From positions 1-64,000 of the forward strand of contig NZ_BJDK01000007.1 of assembly GCF_005405105.1 (NCBI RefSeq): 64,000 nt of DNA, written 5' to 3'. Under the pieces are notes generated by a model. That model saw only the letters and a program-made list of their open reading frames with translations. It was not told the origin of the DNA and did no database searches. Source of the stretch: Lactiplantibacillus dongliensis (lineage in GTDB: Bacteria > Bacillota > Bacilli > Lactobacillales > Lactobacillaceae). Positions 5,197 to 61,955 of the stretch are shown piece after piece (the stretch's first letter is position 1; every line of letters starts with the position of its first letter). Position numbers and translations under genes: made by a program.

Positions 5197-5243
5197 AACG
5201 GCGCCGCTGCACATTAGATTGTGTAGCGGCGCCGTTTTTTTGT
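5197..5243 (+). terminator. Terminator of the beta-glucoside operon
   Basis: GC-rich stem ACGGCGCCGCT/AGCGGCGCCGT with an AT-rich loop, followed by seven T. Confidence 0.9.
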
Positions 5244-5263
5244 TTAGGGAATAGTAGTCGGTG

Positions 5264-5422
5264 ATTGCCGCTCCGGGTGGGCTGGATTTGATGCTGGAAC
5301 GTGGTGGCCGCGTTTGTGAGCCAAGGGGCGGTCTCACAAGCCGAGCTTTGACTAAGGCCGGGAAACTCACCCGACCTAAGTCAAACGACACCACTGAGCA
5401 TCATCCAGCCCACCCTGCGCTA
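5264..5422 (+). repeat. Structured repeat, C variant
   Basis: It shares the A-module core (GGAACGTGGTGGCC and ACGACACCACTGAGC) but has a different closing helix: GGGCTGGATTTGATGCT pairs with AGCATCATCCAGCCC. Inner hairpins are TGTGAGcc/ggTCTCACA and TTTGACT.../...AGTCAAA. It stands 94 bp upstream of an intact composite. The same C-plus-composite arrangement occurs at 50112-50696. Confidence 0.75.
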
Positions 5423-5515
5423 ATATTTAGCGTTGTTGAATACACATCTTCTTTGCAAAACGACCTTACTTGCATCATAGCTAGCTTTTTTTCATACATC
5501 TGATTTATATTAATC

Positions 5516-5921
5516 ACGCTTGGTGTTAGTTGGCTTAAATTGCCACTCTGGTTGGCACAGAATCGGCTGGAACGTGGTGGCCGCGTTTGCGAGCCAAAGA
5601 TCGGTCTCGCAAGCCGGGCTTTATCTAAGGCGGAAAATCACCGACTAAGATAAACGACACCACTGAGCCAATTCTGGGCCACCCGACGTTAACTAACGGG
5701 TTTTAAAAAATTAACGATTGACTATCTTCAGTTTAATTATTTAGCCAAGAGGTTGGCTTATAAAATGCTCAGCCGTGTCGTTGGCCTTAGTACGAGTATT
5801 TTTTCTCGGACTTAGACCAAGGTCAGTTTTGAAGATCGTTATTTGGTTTCAAAATGACCCATGGCATTCCAGCATTTTAGAATCCAACCGGCAGGCGGCA
5901 ATTTCAACTAGCACCAAGCGT
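5516..5921 (+). mobile_element. Composite structured repeat (modules A and B) with inverted-repeat ends
   Basis: A 406-bp element. It begins ACGCTTGGTGTTAGTTGG and ends CAACTAGCACCAAGCGT, which are inverted repeats of each other. Module A (about 5542-5690) and module B (about 5750-5905) are joined by an AT-rich linker. The 7-bp sequence ATTAATC stands directly before (5509-5515) and directly after (5922-5928) the element, as expected of a target-site duplication. It encodes no protein. A frame crossing its right end is an artefact of the downstream gene. Confidence 0.8.
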
Positions 5922-5957
5922 ATTAATCCAATAAATTTAAAGGAGTGGTTGTATTTT

Positions 5958-6398
5958 ATGAAAAAGTTAAAGCTGGGCAATCTCAAGTTCACTAATGCTG
6001 TCTATACCATCAATAATTATGGATCCCCCAAACTCCGGTTAAATCAAAGATTGATAGTTATTTCTTCTTGTATCGTGATCTACATCCAAATAATTATTCC
6101 TAACGCATCTTTGCCAAAGCTAACTATTGGAATAACTGCCATTAACCTTTTTCTAAGTGGCACTCAATTTATGCATGATCTTTCTAACAGCCGAAAAATC
6201 ATCTATCATCTTTTTAACAGTATGATATCAGGGCTCCTGATCTGCCAGCAAATCTATCCCATTTTGGTTAACGTTCTTGGAAATCACCTAGAACCTTACT
6301 TGATTTGGAATATCGGCCTCATAATGGTTGCCTTAATCACTATGGTAGCAATCGCCATTACTCTAAAGGTAGCCAAAAGACGCCATCATTTACTTTGA
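5958..6398 (+). CDS. Small integral membrane protein of unknown function (146 aa)
   Basis: The true start is the ATG at 5958, with AAAGGAG at 5939-5945. The open frame extends upstream into a repeat element, but that part is not a plausible protein. The 146 residues start with a basic stretch (MKKLKLGNLKF) and hold four hydrophobic segments (around residues 29-50, 52-70, 84-104 and 110-133). They end in a basic tail (KVAKRRHHLL). I do not recognise the family. Neighbours give no function. Its promoter must lie in, or just after, the composite repeat that abuts it. Confidence 0.65.
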   Translation: MKKLKLGNLKFTNAVYTINNYGSPKLRLNQRLIVISSCIVIYIQIIIPNASLPKLTIGITAINLFLSGTQFMHDLSNSRKIIYHLFNSMISGLLICQQIYPILVNVLGNHLEPYLIWNIGLIMVALITMVAIAITLKVAKRRHHLL

Positions 6399-6439
6399 AA
6401 CAAGTAGATAATTTTTCAAAACTGATACCGGTCACAAAA

Positions 6440-6490
6440 ACAGACGTTATTATCGGTTGTATTCTTTACTCCCGATAATAGCGTCTATTT
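6440..6490. terminator. Bidirectional terminator
   Basis: Inverted repeat AGACGTTATTATCGG/CCGATAATAGCGTCT with flanking A and T tracts. It serves the membrane-protein gene on the plus strand and the reductase gene on the minus strand. Confidence 0.75.
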
Positions 6491-6518
6491 TGAGTTTATC
6501 AAGATCAATCAAATCTGA

Positions 6519-8360
6519 CTAATCTTTTACTGGCAGTTTGGCCTTTTCCAATGCATTTTTAACGGCACTCTTAACAGCACGACTGGACGTTGATGCACCC
6601 GAAATCACATCGACATCATAACTGTTAGCTGCCACCATCTTAGCGGGTAATTGCTCAATCGCAACTTGGCCAACGTCTTCGCTTTCACTTTGACGAACAA
6701 CTTCAACCTGTTTTAATGTCTCGTCAGCGTATGTGATACGGACAACGACTTGACCGCCAATCCCATTATCACTGGTACCAAGATACTGATTAGGACCAAC
6801 TTTAATGTCATCATCAGTTGCTAAAAGGTCATTACCACCCAGTGCAGCTGATTTAGCACTGGCCCCAGATGTGGCATCAGTTGTTTCAGGCTGGCTTTCC
6901 TTAGCCTTAGCCGCATTTTCACCAGCAATCTTCCCAAAAATCAAGCATTCGGCTAAGTTACCACCACCCTGATATTGGTTCGCACAAATACCGCCTAATT
7001 CACCAGCTCCATACAAATGAGGAATCGGCTTGCGACTACTATCCAGAATTTCGGCTTTGGCATTCCGCCGTGGTCCACCTTGCGTGTTTAAAACATCATG
7101 GGTTAACGGTGCCGCATAGAACGGTCCATTGCCAAATGCCTGCATTGTTTCTGGATCACGACCATATGCATAATCGTGTCCTTCCATAGCAAAGTGATTG
7201 AAATCATTAATTGTTTGCGTCAAAATAGTTGGGTCTACATCCATCTGTTTTGCTAATGCTACCAAGCTATTCCCTTTTAACAACGTCTTTAAGAAGTCAG
7301 CATATGGTAACTTCGCATCATTTTGGAATTTCGTTAATTGTGCTTGGTCAAATACTAAGTATGGATGAACATTTGTCCGGGGCACCCGCCAAGTACCATG
7401 GTCATAAATATGGCCATGACGATTAGGCTCGTCTTCTTTAAAGTAGCGGCTACCATCATCACCAACTGTAACAATACTCCCCTGATACAAATCTGGCCAC
7501 GCGCCAACAATCAACCGAGCGCGCTCACCAGCTGGCACCTTAAAAGCCATCCCATGTAACATCCCTAACGCTTCATAATTTTGCATATGCCACATATCAG
7601 CGCCAACTTCTTCACCCATCCGAATGCCATCACCTTGGTTATATAAGGTTCCAAGTGGTGCCAAATGATCGGCACCTAAATAATCTTGGACTTGTGACCG
7701 ATTATTTTCAAAACCACCCATGGCCATGACTATGCCGTTACGTGCTTTAATATTAACTAGCTGACCGTTACGTTCAATTTGGATCCCAATCACTGTCTTT
7801 GTCGCTAGATCCTGAATAAGATGTTTTGCCGGTGACTGTAACCAAACATCAATTTTATCAGCACGATCCAATACCTTTTGTCGTAAAATTTTCCATAATG
7901 CCGCATCAAACATTCCCGCATGAACCGTGGTGAAATCATAAGACTGTACGCCATCATATTCTGGATATTCAAAAATCGCGTCTTTAATATTGATATCTGT
8001 TGAGCTAGTATCGAAATCATTTTTGAAGCTAAATGGTTCAACATCTAGGTATTGACGGACGTACTGGCGCATGTTGACCATACCATCAACATAAGTGTTG
8101 ACCATCTCATCATCTAAATCCATCGGTGCCGTTAATTTTTGATAATATGTTTTTAAATCTTTAAAGTTGTCGCCCGTACCTATTAACTGTGCTGAATACC
8201 GAGTATTCCCACCTTCATGGCCATTAGGTGCGGCATCAGTCAACAAGACCTTCGCGCCGGCATCGGCCGCAAAACGTGCAGCTGTAGCACCTGCACCACC
8301 AAAGCCTAAAACTACCGTATCATAAGTCGCATCCCAATTAAGTTGATTATTCGCTATCAT
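6519..8360 (-). CDS. FAD-dependent reductase with C-terminal FMN-binding domain (fumarate/acrylate-reductase-like)
   Basis: 613 residues. An FAD-binding Rossmann fold opens the protein (VVLGFGGAGATAARFAADAG, about residues 16-35) and the flavoprotein domain runs to about residue 485. A C-terminal FMN_bind domain (about 525-613) contains DVISGASTSS, with Ser590 as the probable covalent phosphoester FMN site used by an ApbE flavin transferase. The position equivalent to the His-Thr-x-Gly-Gly of fumarate reductases reads NTQGGPRRN, so fumarate is not assured as substrate. An unsaturated carboxylate such as acrylate, cinnamate or urocanate is possible. No signal peptide is seen, so it should act in the cytosol with NAD(P)H electrons from elsewhere. 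It is divergent from a LysR gene. No apbE lies in the window. Confidence 0.85.
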   Translation of the reverse strand: MIANNQLNWDATYDTVVLGFGGAGATAARFAADAGAKVLLTDAAPNGHEGGNTRYSAQLIGTGDNFKDLKTYYQKLTAPMDLDDEMVNTYVDGMVNMRQYVRQYLDVEPFSFKNDFDTSSTDINIKDAIFEYPEYDGVQSYDFTTVHAGMFDAALWKILRQKVLDRADKIDVWLQSPAKHLIQDLATKTVIGIQIERNGQLVNIKARNGIVMAMGGFENNRSQVQDYLGADHLAPLGTLYNQGDGIRMGEEVGADMWHMQNYEALGMLHGMAFKVPAGERARLIVGAWPDLYQGSIVTVGDDGSRYFKEDEPNRHGHIYDHGTWRVPRTNVHPYLVFDQAQLTKFQNDAKLPYADFLKTLLKGNSLVALAKQMDVDPTILTQTINDFNHFAMEGHDYAYGRDPETMQAFGNGPFYAAPLTHDVLNTQGGPRRNAKAEILDSSRKPIPHLYGAGELGGICANQYQGGGNLAECLIFGKIAGENAAKAKESQPETTDATSGASAKSAALGGNDLLATDDDIKVGPNQYLGTSDNGIGGQVVVRITYADETLKQVEVVRQSESEDVGQVAIEQLPAKMVAANSYDVDVISGASTSSRAVKSAVKNALEKAKLPVKD

Positions 8361-8393
8361 ATTACCGAGCTCCTTACTTTATTTGTGTCAGTT

Positions 8394-8504
8394 ATCACAA
8401 CTTCAATAAACAACCTTATTATGCAATCGCTTTCTTTGATTGTAAAATTACTCTCAAGGCGTATGATGATAACAAAACTGTTATAGAATTTAAGTTGTTG
8501 TGAT
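8394..8504. promoter_or_regulatory. LysR-type control region between reductase and regulator
   Basis: ATCACAACTT at 8394-8403 and its near-inverse AAGTTGTTGTGAT at 8492-8504 bracket the divergent promoter region and are candidate binding sites for the adjacent LysR protein. Confidence 0.4.
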
Positions 8505-8530
8505 TAATCTAGTTATTGGAGGTCTCAAAT

Positions 8531-9424
8531 ATGGAACAACGATTAGCTGACTTTTTAGCTGCCATTGAAACAACTGGTAATATGACTAAGGCTGCACAAA
8601 GTCTATTTATTACTCAGCCTTACATTAGTCAAACCATTAGTCGTGCTGAACACGACTTGCAAGTGGCCCTACTCAATCGGCAACACCAGCCACTGACCTT
8701 AACATACGCTGGTAAACGTGTACTGACTTACCTCCAAGCTGAACATCAACTCCAGCGCTCTTTAAAACAAGAGCTACACCAATTAACCAACCATGCTTAT
8801 GGCTCGTTATCTTTGGCAATCAATCAGCCTTTAGCTGCAACTTGGCTACCGGCCATTCTACCAACACTGTATACCAAGTTTCCACAACTACACACCAGCT
8901 TAATGGAAATGACGACCAGTGACGCTGAACAATTGCTTCCCGCTGGCAAGATTGATGCTTTTATAGGTAAAGCAATCCATGATGACCGTTTAAGTTTTCA
9001 TACTATCGGTCGCGTCACTTTAGCTTTAGTCGTCCCTAGCAGTTATTCCATTCATGTTGATCCTGCTAATCCACTTGCCGTACTAACAAATCAAAATTTC
9101 ATTCGCTTAAGTGACCCTTCACGTTTTCAAGAAATGGTCGACCATTTCTTTCAAGATAATGGCATCACGGTCATTAATCGAATTGAAGCGCCAGATTCAC
9201 GTGTGGCTTTACAATTAAGTCTGGCTCAGCTTGGCTGTACGATAACCGGCTTAATTGATGCACGCCAGTTGCAACGTCAACAGCCACAACGTTTACAAGT
9301 CTTTCCCATTCCAATTGAACAGCTTTCTTTAGATATGGGAATTTCCTATCCACGCCAAAATCGATCCGAAGTCATGACAACTCTCGTTAACACCGTTACA
9401 ACCGTGTTACCAGCCTTAATTTAG
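8531..9424 (+). CDS. LysR-family transcriptional regulator
   Basis: 297 residues from the ATG at 8531 (TTGGAGG upstream). The N-terminal HTH is typical (NMTKAAQSLFITQPYISQTI), followed by the linker helix and a periplasmic-binding-like effector domain (about 90-290). It is transcribed away from the flavoprotein reductase at 6519-8360, so it probably activates that gene in response to the reductase substrate or a related carboxylate. It is clearly different from the second LysR at 14528, so the two reductases probably respond to different signals. Confidence 0.85.
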   Translation: MEQRLADFLAAIETTGNMTKAAQSLFITQPYISQTISRAEHDLQVALLNRQHQPLTLTYAGKRVLTYLQAEHQLQRSLKQELHQLTNHAYGSLSLAINQPLAATWLPAILPTLYTKFPQLHTSLMEMTTSDAEQLLPAGKIDAFIGKAIHDDRLSFHTIGRVTLALVVPSSYSIHVDPANPLAVLTNQNFIRLSDPSRFQEMVDHFFQDNGITVINRIEAPDSRVALQLSLAQLGCTITGLIDARQLQRQQPQRLQVFPIPIEQLSLDMGISYPRQNRSEVMTTLVNTVTTVLPALI

Positions 9425-9505
9425 GCCTAAAAATTTCTGTAATGACCTTTTAAATATAGGCTTATCTTGGTATTAACGACTCTATCTCCAAACTGTCGCT
9501 ACTTA

Positions 9506-9654
9506 ACGCCGGGCGGGTCAGAATTGGCTCAGTGGTGTCGTTTATCTTGGTCGGTGATTTTCCGACTTAGATAAAGCCCGGCTCGGAAGACCGCCCTTCG
9601 GCTTCCGAACGCGGCCACCACGTTCCAGCCGATTCTGACCCAACCAGAGTGGCA
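9506..9654 (-). repeat. Structured repeat, solo module A
   Basis: A full module A. The closing helix carries a compensatory change: GGGTCAGAAT pairs with ATTCTGACCC, where most copies have GGGCCAGAAT/ATTCTGGCCC. The hairpin CGGAAG/CTTCCG also differs in sequence but stays paired. A weak match to the terminal repeat follows (ACAACTAACATG to about 9671). It lies between a LysR gene and the terminator of usp. Confidence 0.85.
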
Positions 9655-9680
9655 AAAAAACAACTAACATGATACAACAA

Positions 9681-16995: not shown

Positions 16996-17343
16996 CCGCT
17001 TCGTGTTAGATAGATATAACTTGCACTCTAGTTGGTCCAGAATCGGCTGGAACGTGGTGGCCGCGTTTTATCTAAGTCGGCAACCCACCGACTAAGATAA
17101 ACGACACCACTGAGCCAATTCTGGACCGCCCGGCGTTAATTACCGGGCATCTGCAAATGAAAGTTTTCTTCTACCAGTTGTTTTAGTTTCTAAAATATTC
17201 AGCCGTGTTGTTGGGCATCAATATGAGCGATCTTCTCAGACTTAGACTAAGAACAACTTTGAAGACCAAGCTTGCGGCGTTGGCACACAATCTTAGGCAT
17301 TTGGATAATGGATAACGTGAGCGTAAATACCCAGCATCAAGCA
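16996..17343 (+). repeat. Degraded composite repeat with a module A lacking one hairpin
   Basis: The left end is recognisable (GCTTCGTGTTAGATAG). Module A (17021-17139) keeps the closing helix (GTCCAGAATCGGCT/AGCCAATTCTGGAC) and one hairpin (TTATCTAAGTCGG/CCGACTAAGATAA) but has lost the other hairpin cleanly. Module B (about 17190-17300) is much mutated, and the right end may be CAGCATCAAGC. It occupies most of an 890-bp stretch without genes between 16919 and 17807. Confidence 0.7.
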
Positions 17344-17381
17344 TAATTATTTAATTAGCTATCCCCATTGAACAAGCAGTC

Positions 17382-17558
17382 TTAGTCGTAGTGACCAGCA
17401 AGTTCGCTGTGTCGAGCCACTTAGCCGGGTACTTTTGCCCAGATTAGTGGCTGGGCCAGCTTTTAAGACGTGATTTTCGGCTTAAAGGTGCCCTGCAAAC
17501 CACCCTTTGGCTGCAGGGCTGCCCCACCGCGAATCTGCTGGTCAACGGAGACGACTAA
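17382..17558 (+). repeat. Structured element, D variant (long-stem, three-hairpin)
   Basis: The outer arms pair TTAGTCGT with ACGACTAA and TGACCAGCA with TGCTGGTCA. Then TTCGC pairs with GCGAA. Inside are three hairpins: AGCCACTTA/TTAGTGGCT, a CTTTTAAG/CTTAAAGG stem and CCCTGCA/CTGCAGGG. The junction retains GTGTCG and CCCCACC in positions matching the A-module core. It shares little primary sequence with A, B or C, so membership of the same family is inferred from architecture and from its place next to a composite copy. Confidence 0.55.
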
Positions 17559-17715
17559 TCTCAACCATACTAGATTTTATGACAATCTCGTTACAGTATA
17601 AATATGGTAATGATGAGATACCAACAATTCAACTACTAACCTTTTTGTCAACCTTATCAGCACGCAAACTAGCGTTAATTAAGCGAACATCCCTAACCAT
17701 AAAAATAATGATTTT

Positions 17716-22712: not shown

Positions 22713-23118
22713 ACACTTAGTGCTAGTTTGTTTAAATTACCACTCTGGTTGGTCCAGAATCGGCTGGAACGTGGTGGCCACGTTTTTGAGCCAAAAAGCG
22801 GTCTCAAAAGCCGGGCTTTATCTAAGGCCGGAAAATCACCGACCAAGATAAACGACACCACTGAGCCAATTCTGGCCCGCCCGGCGTTAAATAACCGGAA
22901 TTGAAAAATTAATGATTGATTATTCTCAGTTCAGTTATTTAGCCGAGCCGTTGGTTCCTAAAATGCTCAGCTATGTCGTTGGCCTTAGTGTGAGTAGTCT
23001 GCTCGGACTTAGGCCAAGGTCAGTTTTGAAGACCTCAGCGTTGGCTTCAAAATGGCCCATGGCGTTCCAGCGTTTTAGGAGCCAACTGGCAGACGCAATC
23101 TTAACTAGCACCAAGCGT
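22713..23118 (+). mobile_element. Composite structured repeat (modules A and B) with inverted-repeat ends
   Basis: 406 bp, the same length and order as the copy at 5516. It begins ACACTTAGTGCTAGTTTG and ends AACTAGCACCAAGCGT. AATCAATGTCT directly precedes it (22702-22712) and AATCAGTGTCT directly follows (23119-23129): an 11-bp direct repeat with one mismatch, consistent with a target-site duplication. The module A hairpin TTTTGAG/CTCAAAA differs from other copies but pairs fully. Confidence 0.82.
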
Positions 23119-42393: not shown

Positions 42394-42597
42394 TCAAAGT
42401 GTGAGGGAACGTAAGGGGTTATTTTTCCGCTCCGGTTAAAACTTTCTAGCTGGTGATAGTCACCATCGCTTTTATTAACCAACACTGCATGACCTTATAC
42501 CTAATATCAATTAACTGATTCATTATTGGAAACCAGCCATTTAACTAAATTTACTGACTAAGAAGATCCTCATTAACTGATCAATGGCCGTTATTTA

Positions 42598-42746
42598 ACG
42601 CCGGGCGGGCTAGAATTGGCTCAGTGGTGTCGTTTTACTTAATCGGTGATTTTCCGATTTAGTAAAAGCCCGGCTTATGAGACCGCCCTTCGGCTCATAA
42701 ACGTGGCCACCACGTTCCAGCCGATTCTAGCCCAACCAGAGTGGCA
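42598..42746 (-). repeat. Structured repeat, solo module A
   Basis: A full module A with several compensated substitutions. The closing helix reads GGGCTAGAAT/ATTCTAGCCC, one hairpin TTTTACTTaATCGG/CCGATTtAGTAAAA and the other TTATGAG/CTCATAA. It splits mupG from murQ within a 465-bp gap. The flanking sequence resembles the family's terminal repeat only weakly. Apart from the terminator at 42352, the rest of the gap shows nothing else. Confidence 0.88.
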
Positions 42747-42807
42747 AATTTAATCTAATCAATACTAAAATAATCGCTAAAAATCTAAACCAAAAAGGAG
42801 AAAAATC

Positions 42808-50069: not shown

Positions 50070-50111
50070 TTACAACCACCCCGTTCTTAAAATTCAATCC
50101 CCCATAGTTAC

Positions 50112-50266
50112 TTGCCGCTCCGGTTAGGCCGGATTTGACGCTGGAACGTGGTGGCCACGTTTGCGAGCCAAAGAACGGTCTCGCAAGCCGGGCTTTCACT
50201 AGGCCGAAAAAAACGGCCAAGTAAAATTTCACCACTGAGCGTCATCCAGCCCAACCTGCGCTAAAC
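50112..50266 (+). repeat. Structured repeat, C variant
   Basis: Second C copy. The closing helix is GGATTTGACGCT/AGCGTCATCC, against TTTGATGCT/AGCATCAT in the copy at 5264: a compensated T-A to C-G change. Hairpins are TGCGAG/CTCGCA and a TTTCACTaGGCCG/CGGCCAAGTAAAA stem. It lies upstream of the GH5 gene and 37 bp from an intact composite. Confidence 0.78.
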
Positions 50267-50302: not shown

Positions 50303-50696
50303 ACGCTTGGTGCTAGTCGGCTTAAATTACCACTCTGGTTGGGCCAGAATCGGCTGGAACGTGGTGGCCGCGTTTGGAAGCCAAAGTGCGGGCTTCCAAG
50401 CCGGGCTTTATCTAAGTCGGAAAACCACCGACTAAGATAAACGACACCACTGAGCCAATTCTGGCCCGCCCGACGTTAATTAACGGGAATTAATGATTAT
50501 TTATTGTCAATCGTAAATTTAGCCGAGAGGTTGGATGCTAAAATGTTCAGCCGTGTCGTTGGTCTTAGTGCGAGTGTTTTTCTCGGACTTAGACCAAGGT
50601 AAGTTTTGAAGACCGGGTTTTGGCTTCAAAATGACCCATGGCGTTCCAGCATTTTAGCAACCAACCGGCAGGCGGCAATTTTAACTAGTACCAAAC
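50303..50696 (+). mobile_element. Composite structured repeat (modules A and B) with inverted-repeat ends
   Basis: 394 bp. Starts ACGCTTGGTGCTAGTCGG and ends AACTAGTACCAAAC with a slightly worn right end. The module A hairpin TGGAAGCC/GGCTTCCA and module B stem TTGGTCTTAG/CTTAGACCAA differ from other copies yet pair. The right end stops one base short of the stop codon of the HIRAN-protein gene. No clear flanking direct repeat is seen here. Confidence 0.8.
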
Positions 50697-54070: not shown

Positions 54071-54477
54071 ACGTTTGGTGCTAGTTGGTTTAAATTGCCA
54101 CTCTGGTTGGGCCAAAATCGGCTGGAACGTGGTGGCCGCGTTTATGAGCCACAAAACGGTCTCATAAGCCGGGCTTTGACTAACTCGAGAAAATCACTCG
54201 ACTAAGTCAAACGACACCACTGAGCCAATTCTGGCCCGCCCGCCGTTAATTAACGGCTATTAAGGAATCAACAATTGATTATTTTTAGTTTAGTCATCTA
54301 GCTGAGAGGTTGGTTCCTAAAATGCTCAGCCGTGTCGTTGGCCTTAGTGCGAGTGGGCTACTCGGACTTAGGCCAAGGCCAGTTTTGAAGACCGCACTTT
54401 GGCTTCAAAATAGTCCATGGCGTTCCAGCGTTTTAGGAACCAACCGGCAGGCGGCAATTTCAACTAGCACCAAGCGT
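54071..54477 (+). mobile_element. Composite structured repeat (modules A and B) with inverted-repeat ends
   Basis: 407 bp. Starts ACGTTTGGTGCTAGTTGG and ends CAACTAGCACCAAGCGT. AAAAAAGAC precedes it (54062-54070) and AAAAAAGGC follows (54478-54486): a 9-bp direct repeat with one mismatch. Module B has the best closing helix of all copies: GGTTGGTTCCTAAAATGCT with AGCGTTTTAGGAACCAACC. Its hairpin TTTTGAAGacc/ggCTTCAAAA is perfect. Confidence 0.82.
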
Positions 54478-61849: not shown

Positions 61850-61955
61850 TAATCAGCTGTGACACTTTCCCTACGCAAGTCTGAACTTACAGGTTCAAAG
61901 GGATCGGTGTTAACTCACCATCTCAGCCCAGTCATGGACACCCCTAGTGTTTGTA
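61850..61955 (-). ncRNA. TPP riboswitch (THI element)
   Basis: Minus-strand conserved pieces in order: CTAGGGGTGTCC, GGGCTGAGA, ACACCGATCCCTTTGAACCTG, and CTTGCGTAGGGAA. These are the signature segments of the thiamine pyrophosphate aptamer. With TPP bound, the downstream terminator should form and shut off thiMDE-cytX. Confidence 0.96.

Follow-up and report, generated by a model that had tools for sequence, protein, structure and literature searches.

What kind of element recurs, with one and the same internal order, in the genome of Lactiplantibacillus dongliensis, how does it move, and why do both of its halves fold? In the 64,000-nucleotide stretch of DNA analysed here (the window), four composite copies of 392–407 bp lie on the plus strand at 5516–5921, 22713–23118, 50303–50694 and 54071–54477. 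A preliminary description of this DNA had named these four copies, their inverted-repeat ends and their flanking direct repeats, and all of these are present: the terminal inverted repeat (TIR) ACGCTTGGTGCTAGTTG, the block AAATTGCC, and the direct repeats exactly as quoted. Copy 1 (5516) consists of a TIR, module A on the plus strand (5533–5694), a spacer, module B on the minus strand (5741–5908) and a second TIR, with ATTAATC read from the sequence on either side (5509–5515 and 5922–5928). Copy 2 (22713) stands between the two halves of an 11-bp duplication, AATCAATGTCT / AATCAGTGTCT, and copy 4 (54071) between AAAAAAGAC and AAAAAAGGC. Copy 3 (50303) has a broken right TIR, AACTAGTACCAAACC, and no direct repeats.

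Several features go beyond the preliminary description. The two halves of the element are reverse complements of each other that have diverged. In copy 1 module A, a three-way junction scoring 173.9 bits with our covariance model, is matched by its inverted homologue, module B, at 111.3 bits. Sequence comparison also revealed an internally deleted composite copy at 16998–17278 (plus strand), adjoined by a weak module match at 17379–17564 (minus strand, 30.8 bits). Further modules found with the covariance model stand apart from intact composites: one truncated by the window edge (1–155), one within a rearranged element at 975–1304 (1139–1299) and two single copies of module A (9501–9662 and 42593–42754, the latter common to the sister genome), all four on the minus strand. 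Two single modules of sub-type A2 lie on the plus strand, one without TIRs at 5258–5425, and one at 50105–50266 that adjoins copy 3 and is common to the sister genome. The module at 5258 is directly 3′ of a terminator-like structure, a strong GC-rich hairpin followed by a T-run at 5200–5245.

The preliminary claim that no protein is encoded holds for copy 1, the copy that was checked individually, where no open reading frame (ORF) of at least 60 aa lies wholly inside. One listed ORF begins within copy 1 at a GTG, but outside the element, at 5958, lies an ATG in the same frame that has a ribosome-binding site. This ORF (5958–6398, plus strand, 146 aa) begins 36 bp past the element, has a clear ribosome-binding site and gave no Pfam match. 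The collinear counterpart of ~5492–9499 is not listed in the sister species (G017), where 469 bp correspond to 4 kb, and copy 1 thus borders a difference in gene content.

The element is abundant in the genome of the window (G000). At least 40 near full-length copies match most of a 420-base query at 82–100% identity, a minimum, since 40 of 323 first-look candidates were scored. Allowing up to one mismatch, the core 15-mer GCTGGAACGYGGTGG matches at 247 places and its reversed control at none; allowing up to two, the first 16 bases of the TIR match at 211 places and their reversed sequence at one. The consensus of the 40 copies is 405 bp long with a TIR at each end, several individual copies being without one end; copies are 82–90% alike when compared with copy 1, and the right half is 69–70% identical to the reverse complement of the left. 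Across 464 kb of contigs, picked for containing hits, we counted 90 modules. Mini-elements of ~80–130 bp that kept their ends and lost the middle were seen at C1:61158–61290 and C1:82705–82788 (L047 and L048), and the counterpart of the former in the sister species is 381 bp long. Contigs end in or near the element at the ends of C10 and C8 in the sister species and at the end of C16 and the start of C12 in G000, and draft genomes may therefore under-count it.

The preliminary description had proposed movement by a mechanism that duplicates the target, and three sets of flanks support this proposal against controls in which flanks were mismatched. In G000, 18 of 40 copies reach a duplication score of at least 7, compared with 9 of 1560 mismatched pairings (0.23 expected per 40); judged by eye, the flush perfect duplications are 7–12 bp long and mostly start with A. 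The sister species, whose loci are partly shared with G000 so that the two sets are not wholly independent, gave 11 of 27 copies with both ends against 3 of 702 controls. A sub-family in the genome G014 has unrelated termini, CTAAAGGTTGAAAG...CTTTCAACCTTTAG, measures 471–546 bp and scores 21–51 bits with the model. Here 32 of 33 pairs were used, and among the 14 of those with both TIRs, 6 have flush perfect duplications of 7–8 bp (2 of 182 controls). About half or more of the copies in these three sets carry no duplication.

Empty sites lacking a single copy of the flanking repeat, which the preliminary description had named as counter-evidence, were looked for at one locus, 22713, and the outcome was the opposite. 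Six congeners are without the element there, with flank-to-flank gaps of ~90–160 bp compared with ~510 bp in G000; three others (G020, G013 and G008) have other sequence at this place and were left out. In the alignment, read by eye, G003, G005 and G007 carry a single diverged version (CAATGTTT or CAATATTT, followed by ATTCATT) of the segment that stands on both sides of the element in G000. Taken together, insertion with target duplication, that is, MITE-like transposition (MITE, miniature inverted-repeat transposable element), is supported.

The composites are mostly old. All 12 composite loci that could be compared with the sister species are shared, one of them partly deleted there. Composite copy 3 (50303) has no counterpart in the sister genome, whose flank there is also altered, and other loci differ through internal deletions. 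No fresh insertion, that is, no clean presence–absence difference, was caught between these two closest genomes. Three apparent empty sites were rejected: one reflects a deletion inside the element between CGGTT repeats, one is a diverged region and the third is the flank-altered site; two further candidates turned out to be partial deletions. Three of the 12 shared loci carry the element the other way round within conserved flanks, with reverse identities of 0.96, 0.90 and 0.92 over 281–385 columns against forward identities of 0.61–0.66; the remaining nine align forward at 0.86–0.99. Such inversion in place could proceed by homologous recombination of the inverted ends, by conversion from another copy or by enzyme action.

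The two halves of the element are homologous, convergent modules of ~160 nt, and each forms a three-way junction whose parts are the outer stem P1, the GGAAC/TG internal loop, which is asymmetric, the short P2 (GTGGTG/CACCAC) and two hairpins, P3 and P4. The fold is borne out by strong covariation in an alignment (A1) of 43 rows, composed of the copy-1 module and 42 of 52 modules picked for diversity from 242 distinct ones. In A1, 96.4% of the cells pair compared with 83.7% in shuffles, a figure that may have been raised by dropping ten rows by hand, several of them with internal deletions or misfits. Two-sided changes occur in 23 of the 43 pairs (score 0.343 against 0.112), and pairing falls to 47–52% when the partner is slid by one column. 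Four further alignments (A2–A5) were made without hand selection of rows. At gathering score, the scan of the window against Rfam assigns no family to the module, its sole match being a TPP riboswitch at 61850–61955 (minus strand), and a permissive search of 5220–5960 gave one sub-threshold snoRNA hit (E 0.27).

The pairing of modules follows one rule. In three samples, 80 of 82 two-module units are arranged '+-' and none '-+'. The 464 kb of G000 contain 53 elements, namely 29 '+-', 3 '++-', 1 '+--' and 20 single modules, with no '-+'. In 400 kb of G014 there are 33 '+-' units (33 of the 33 two-module units) and 26 single modules, and in named genomes 18 '+-' (18 of 20 two-module units), 2 '++-', 1 '++', 1 '--' and 38 single. 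Many single modules may have a partner too diverged for detection. Where pairs were viewed, the non-coding spacer is up to ~370 bp long in other genera and as long as 708 bp in a congener (G010). Four aligned copies in Companilactobacillus suantsaicola have common ends, TGCCGTCCTCC...GGAAGACGGCA, and each of the ten loci viewed in Lacticaseibacillus zeae has a lone module whose outer stem, GTGCCAAA...TTTGGCAC, is long. In the genome G114 (C4:201772–202487 and C5:138452–139054), modules were noticed in tandem rows, '+++-' and '++-', each closing with one inverted module.

By nucleotide search the core was recovered from 9 of 41 genomes, every one of the same genus. The covariance model (R1) extended this range, matching 19 of 21 genomes of the genus with 14 to at least 138 matches each and none in the remaining two, G001 and G002. 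Under filters stricter than those of the genus scan, it matched 69 of 251 genomes of the family, representing 13 of 40 genera, and 11 of 295 genomes in an order-wide sample, all 11 of the same family. An exact-pattern scan of named genomes returned 48 stretches in Lactiplantibacillus, Lacticaseibacillus, Levilactobacillus, Companilactobacillus and an uncultured Lactobacillus MAG. No blastn match was obtained in collections of plasmids and phages.

A fold of this kind could be selected as RNA or as single-stranded DNA, and on either strand. If an RNA of the modelled strand were selected, G.U should exceed A.C. When all pairs are counted, G.T does exceed A.C on that strand (131:34 in A1, 248:116 in A2 and 104:85 in A3), an excess caused by a few pairs fixed as G.T, one of them in 43 of 43 rows of A1. 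These fixed pairs fit a folded modelled strand better than the bottom strand. Counted in the mostly Watson–Crick pairs, to the exclusion of the remaining pairs, the ratios of G.T to A.C are 24:30 (A1), 59:113 (A2), 30:60 (A3) and 47:83 (A4). Parsimony on the trees of A2–A5, again for mostly Watson–Crick pairs on the modelled strand, yields 227 changes from Watson–Crick to A.C compared with 123 to G.T, in one direction throughout (71:49, 43:18, 46:18 and 67:38). The asymmetry has P = 3e-8 when summed and 0.055 in A2 alone, values that are too small, as for all the strand statistics, because rows are related and some modules stand in two alignments. An A.C on one strand is a G.T on the other, and the bottom strand therefore tolerates sporadic wobble better. 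It is also the better-folding strand in 328 of 345 rows under DNA parameters; RNA parameters give the same result in 277 of these rows, with A1 alone not significant (24 of 43, P = 0.15); for the module at 5258 the strands differ by only 1 kcal/mol. As a control, 16 tRNAs of the same DNA have 24 G.U in 347 bracketed pairs, a weak comparison given that ARAGORN may bracket canonical pairs only. These analyses suggest that the bottom strand is the one that folds, with the fixed G.T pairs standing against this. Our preference is for single-stranded DNA over an RNA of the bottom strand, because wobble pairs make up a small fraction and because of where the elements lie in G000 (see below), though the strand data do not separate the two.

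We therefore arrive at a reading to which we give a probability of roughly 60%: the element is a non-autonomous, MITE-like family of the Lactobacillaceae, in which the fold acts in cis as an end signal in single-stranded DNA. Its typical unit is made up of two homologous ~160-nt modules that face each other ('+ -') across a non-coding spacer and are bounded by short TIRs. The element lies mostly between genes, and its flanks show that insertion duplicates a 7–12 bp target, probably through a target-duplicating transposase encoded elsewhere and acting in trans. The fold, mainly that of the bottom strand, would then serve as the cis-acting end signal, a step less certain than the mobility itself. 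The core as the site of the transposase and nothing more fits poorly, as the TIRs differ between sub-families and the core stays.

Placement in G000 favours selection through mobility. Its paired elements occupy 5 convergent, 6 divergent and 18 tandem gaps compared with 41, 52 and 122 in the background, proportions that are close (51 of 53 elements could be classified, with genes called by a crude longest-ORF script). Selection on the fold most likely acts through mobility, since this placement is about that of intergenic DNA in general. Overlap with a called ORF was seen for 2 of 51 elements, a count that is no fair test of gene avoidance, because any ORF of up to 250 aa lying across a module was removed beforehand as spurious.

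It is nevertheless conceivable, if unlikely, that the module is a functional RNA or a binding site for an RNA-binding protein, with a job in transcripts such as 3′ UTRs, the transposon-like parts being its successive vehicles. The core is kept over 13 genera while the ends change, and G.T is fixed in a few pairs of the stems, as such a role would have it. In the named genomes, where 84 of 85 matches were used (L208, cut by the end of its locus, was left out), 26 of 35 single modules are sense to the upstream gene (P = 0.002 against an expectation of 0.475 taken from the genome of the window): 10 of 13 in Lacticaseibacillus, 11 of 15 in Levilactobacillus, 4 of 6 in Lactiplantibacillus and 1 of 1 in the MAG. 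In Lacticaseibacillus a crude script places a same-strand intrinsic terminator after 5 of the 13; at five loci of L. zeae (L205, L216, L224, L227 and L234) the single module stands after a sense gene and before such a terminator. This bias hints at a role in transcripts. These 35, however, are the singles out of 38 for which a gene was called on either side; a single exact-pattern scan supplied all of them, and 11 are from L. zeae. Single modules between tandem genes in G000 show no such orientation (3 same, 5 opposite), and outside the fixed pairs G.T does not exceed A.C in A1–A4, the tRNA count being a weak control here too. The placement results from G000 and from the named genomes pull different ways, and the two are not reconciled.

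The covariation could also arise with no selection on the fold, in a plain MITE whose stems were perfected by template switching in hairpins at replication (quasi-palindrome correction). Long palindromes favour such events, the variable stems are almost purely Watson–Crick, and a deletion between short repeats within a module was observed. Copying of this kind would, however, erase the conserved GGAAC/TG loop and the A.A in CTAAG/CTAAG, both seen by eye, and the G.T pair present in 43 of 43 rows, all of which persist, and it does not lead one to expect a strand bias of sporadic mismatches and of folding. We judge this explanation quite improbable.

The preliminary description had further argued that an enzyme elsewhere must act on the element. 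This follows, as an inference, from the missing ORF, but no transposase, autonomous element or insertion sequence (IS) with shared TIRs was found. By eye, no TIR pair at gene-sized distance was noticed among about 100 of the 211 TIR places, and no transposase-like gene was recognised in the spacers of the 12 pairs viewed or in one long-spacer case in G014, which held two small ORFs. The profile search for enzyme families covered Y1_Tnp (PF01797), the domain of RAYT, the Y1 transposase that moves REP/BIME (REPIN) elements. Many intergenic inverted pairs of folded repeats would suit an element of that type. PF01797 is absent from G000 and seven other module-bearing genomes (G020, G018, G013, G003, G004, G005 and G016) and present in G001 and G002, in which no module was found; since this is opposite to the distribution of the modules, RAYT was set aside as the mobiliser. 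Target duplications are not expected for REPINs either, which makes a RAYT-driven origin very improbable. SINE-like retrotransposition of a folded RNA by target-primed reverse transcription could account for a duplication length that varies from 7 to 12 bp, but matching inverted termini at both ends, the lack of a tail and the flush 7–8 bp duplications of G014, which resemble the work of a DNA transposase, leave it scarcely credible.

Returning to the MITE-like reading, unrelated TIRs around a homologous core suggest that the core may be the recognised part, or that elements may have swapped transposases. By the features tested the element works like a MITE, being short and gene-less with TIRs and target duplication; AT-richness is the exception, and no parent with shared TIRs was noticed in the places viewed by eye. 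MITEs are typically AT-rich, a typical and not a defining trait, and QMITE2 of Coxiella burnetii has direct repeats of 7–9 bp and TIRs of 23–29 bp, according to PMC10969869. The family described here resembles bacterial MITEs in its short, gene-less and foldable sequence, its TIRs, a similar duplication length and its many intergenic copies. It differs from them in being an inverted pair of modules, in a covarying three-way junction kept over 13 genera, in ends that are replaced while the core stays, in lacking a parent IS that could be found, and in its composition (module matches in G000 have a G+C of 0.40–0.64, mostly 0.49–0.60). The MITE-like label of the preliminary description is thus supported as regards transposition but incomplete, as the element consists of two homologous modules, each of them folded and of a kind that occurs in 13 genera.

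Comparison with other systems places it between known types. REP, BIME and REPIN elements with RAYT likewise form inverted intergenic folded pairs in one fixed orientation, and occur as singles too, but their palindromic unit is 20–40 nt long compared with ~160 nt here, and the present family has target duplications and no Y1 match in G000. The attC sites of integrons are also folded DNA whose bottom strand folds better and whose paired arms vary while unpaired features stay; unlike them, the modules are dispersed in the copies sampled, form no cassette arrays and are associated with target duplications. The bcr1 repeat of the Bacillus cereus group, an abundant repeat with mobile traits, is similar in size and fold and belongs to another host group; we know of no paired-module architecture for it. 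The architecture is thus REPIN-like and the strand behaviour appears attC-like, likenesses of analogy that do not show identity with either. Our literature search found no description of this element or module family. We tentatively raise, as a possibility rather than an expectation, that it represents a new class of transposable element, in which two inverted, attC-like folded single-stranded DNA ends, strand-specific and combined with exchangeable TIRs, would be used by a target-duplicating enzyme within one bacterial family.

The covariance model allows the mobilising gene to be sought by presence and absence, with G001 and G002 as the genomes without a match. The family also offers a test system for a folded DNA end that is selected while terminal repeats change. 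The element is a sizeable component of such genomes, and it reaches the industrially important genera Lactiplantibacillus, Lacticaseibacillus, Levilactobacillus and Companilactobacillus.
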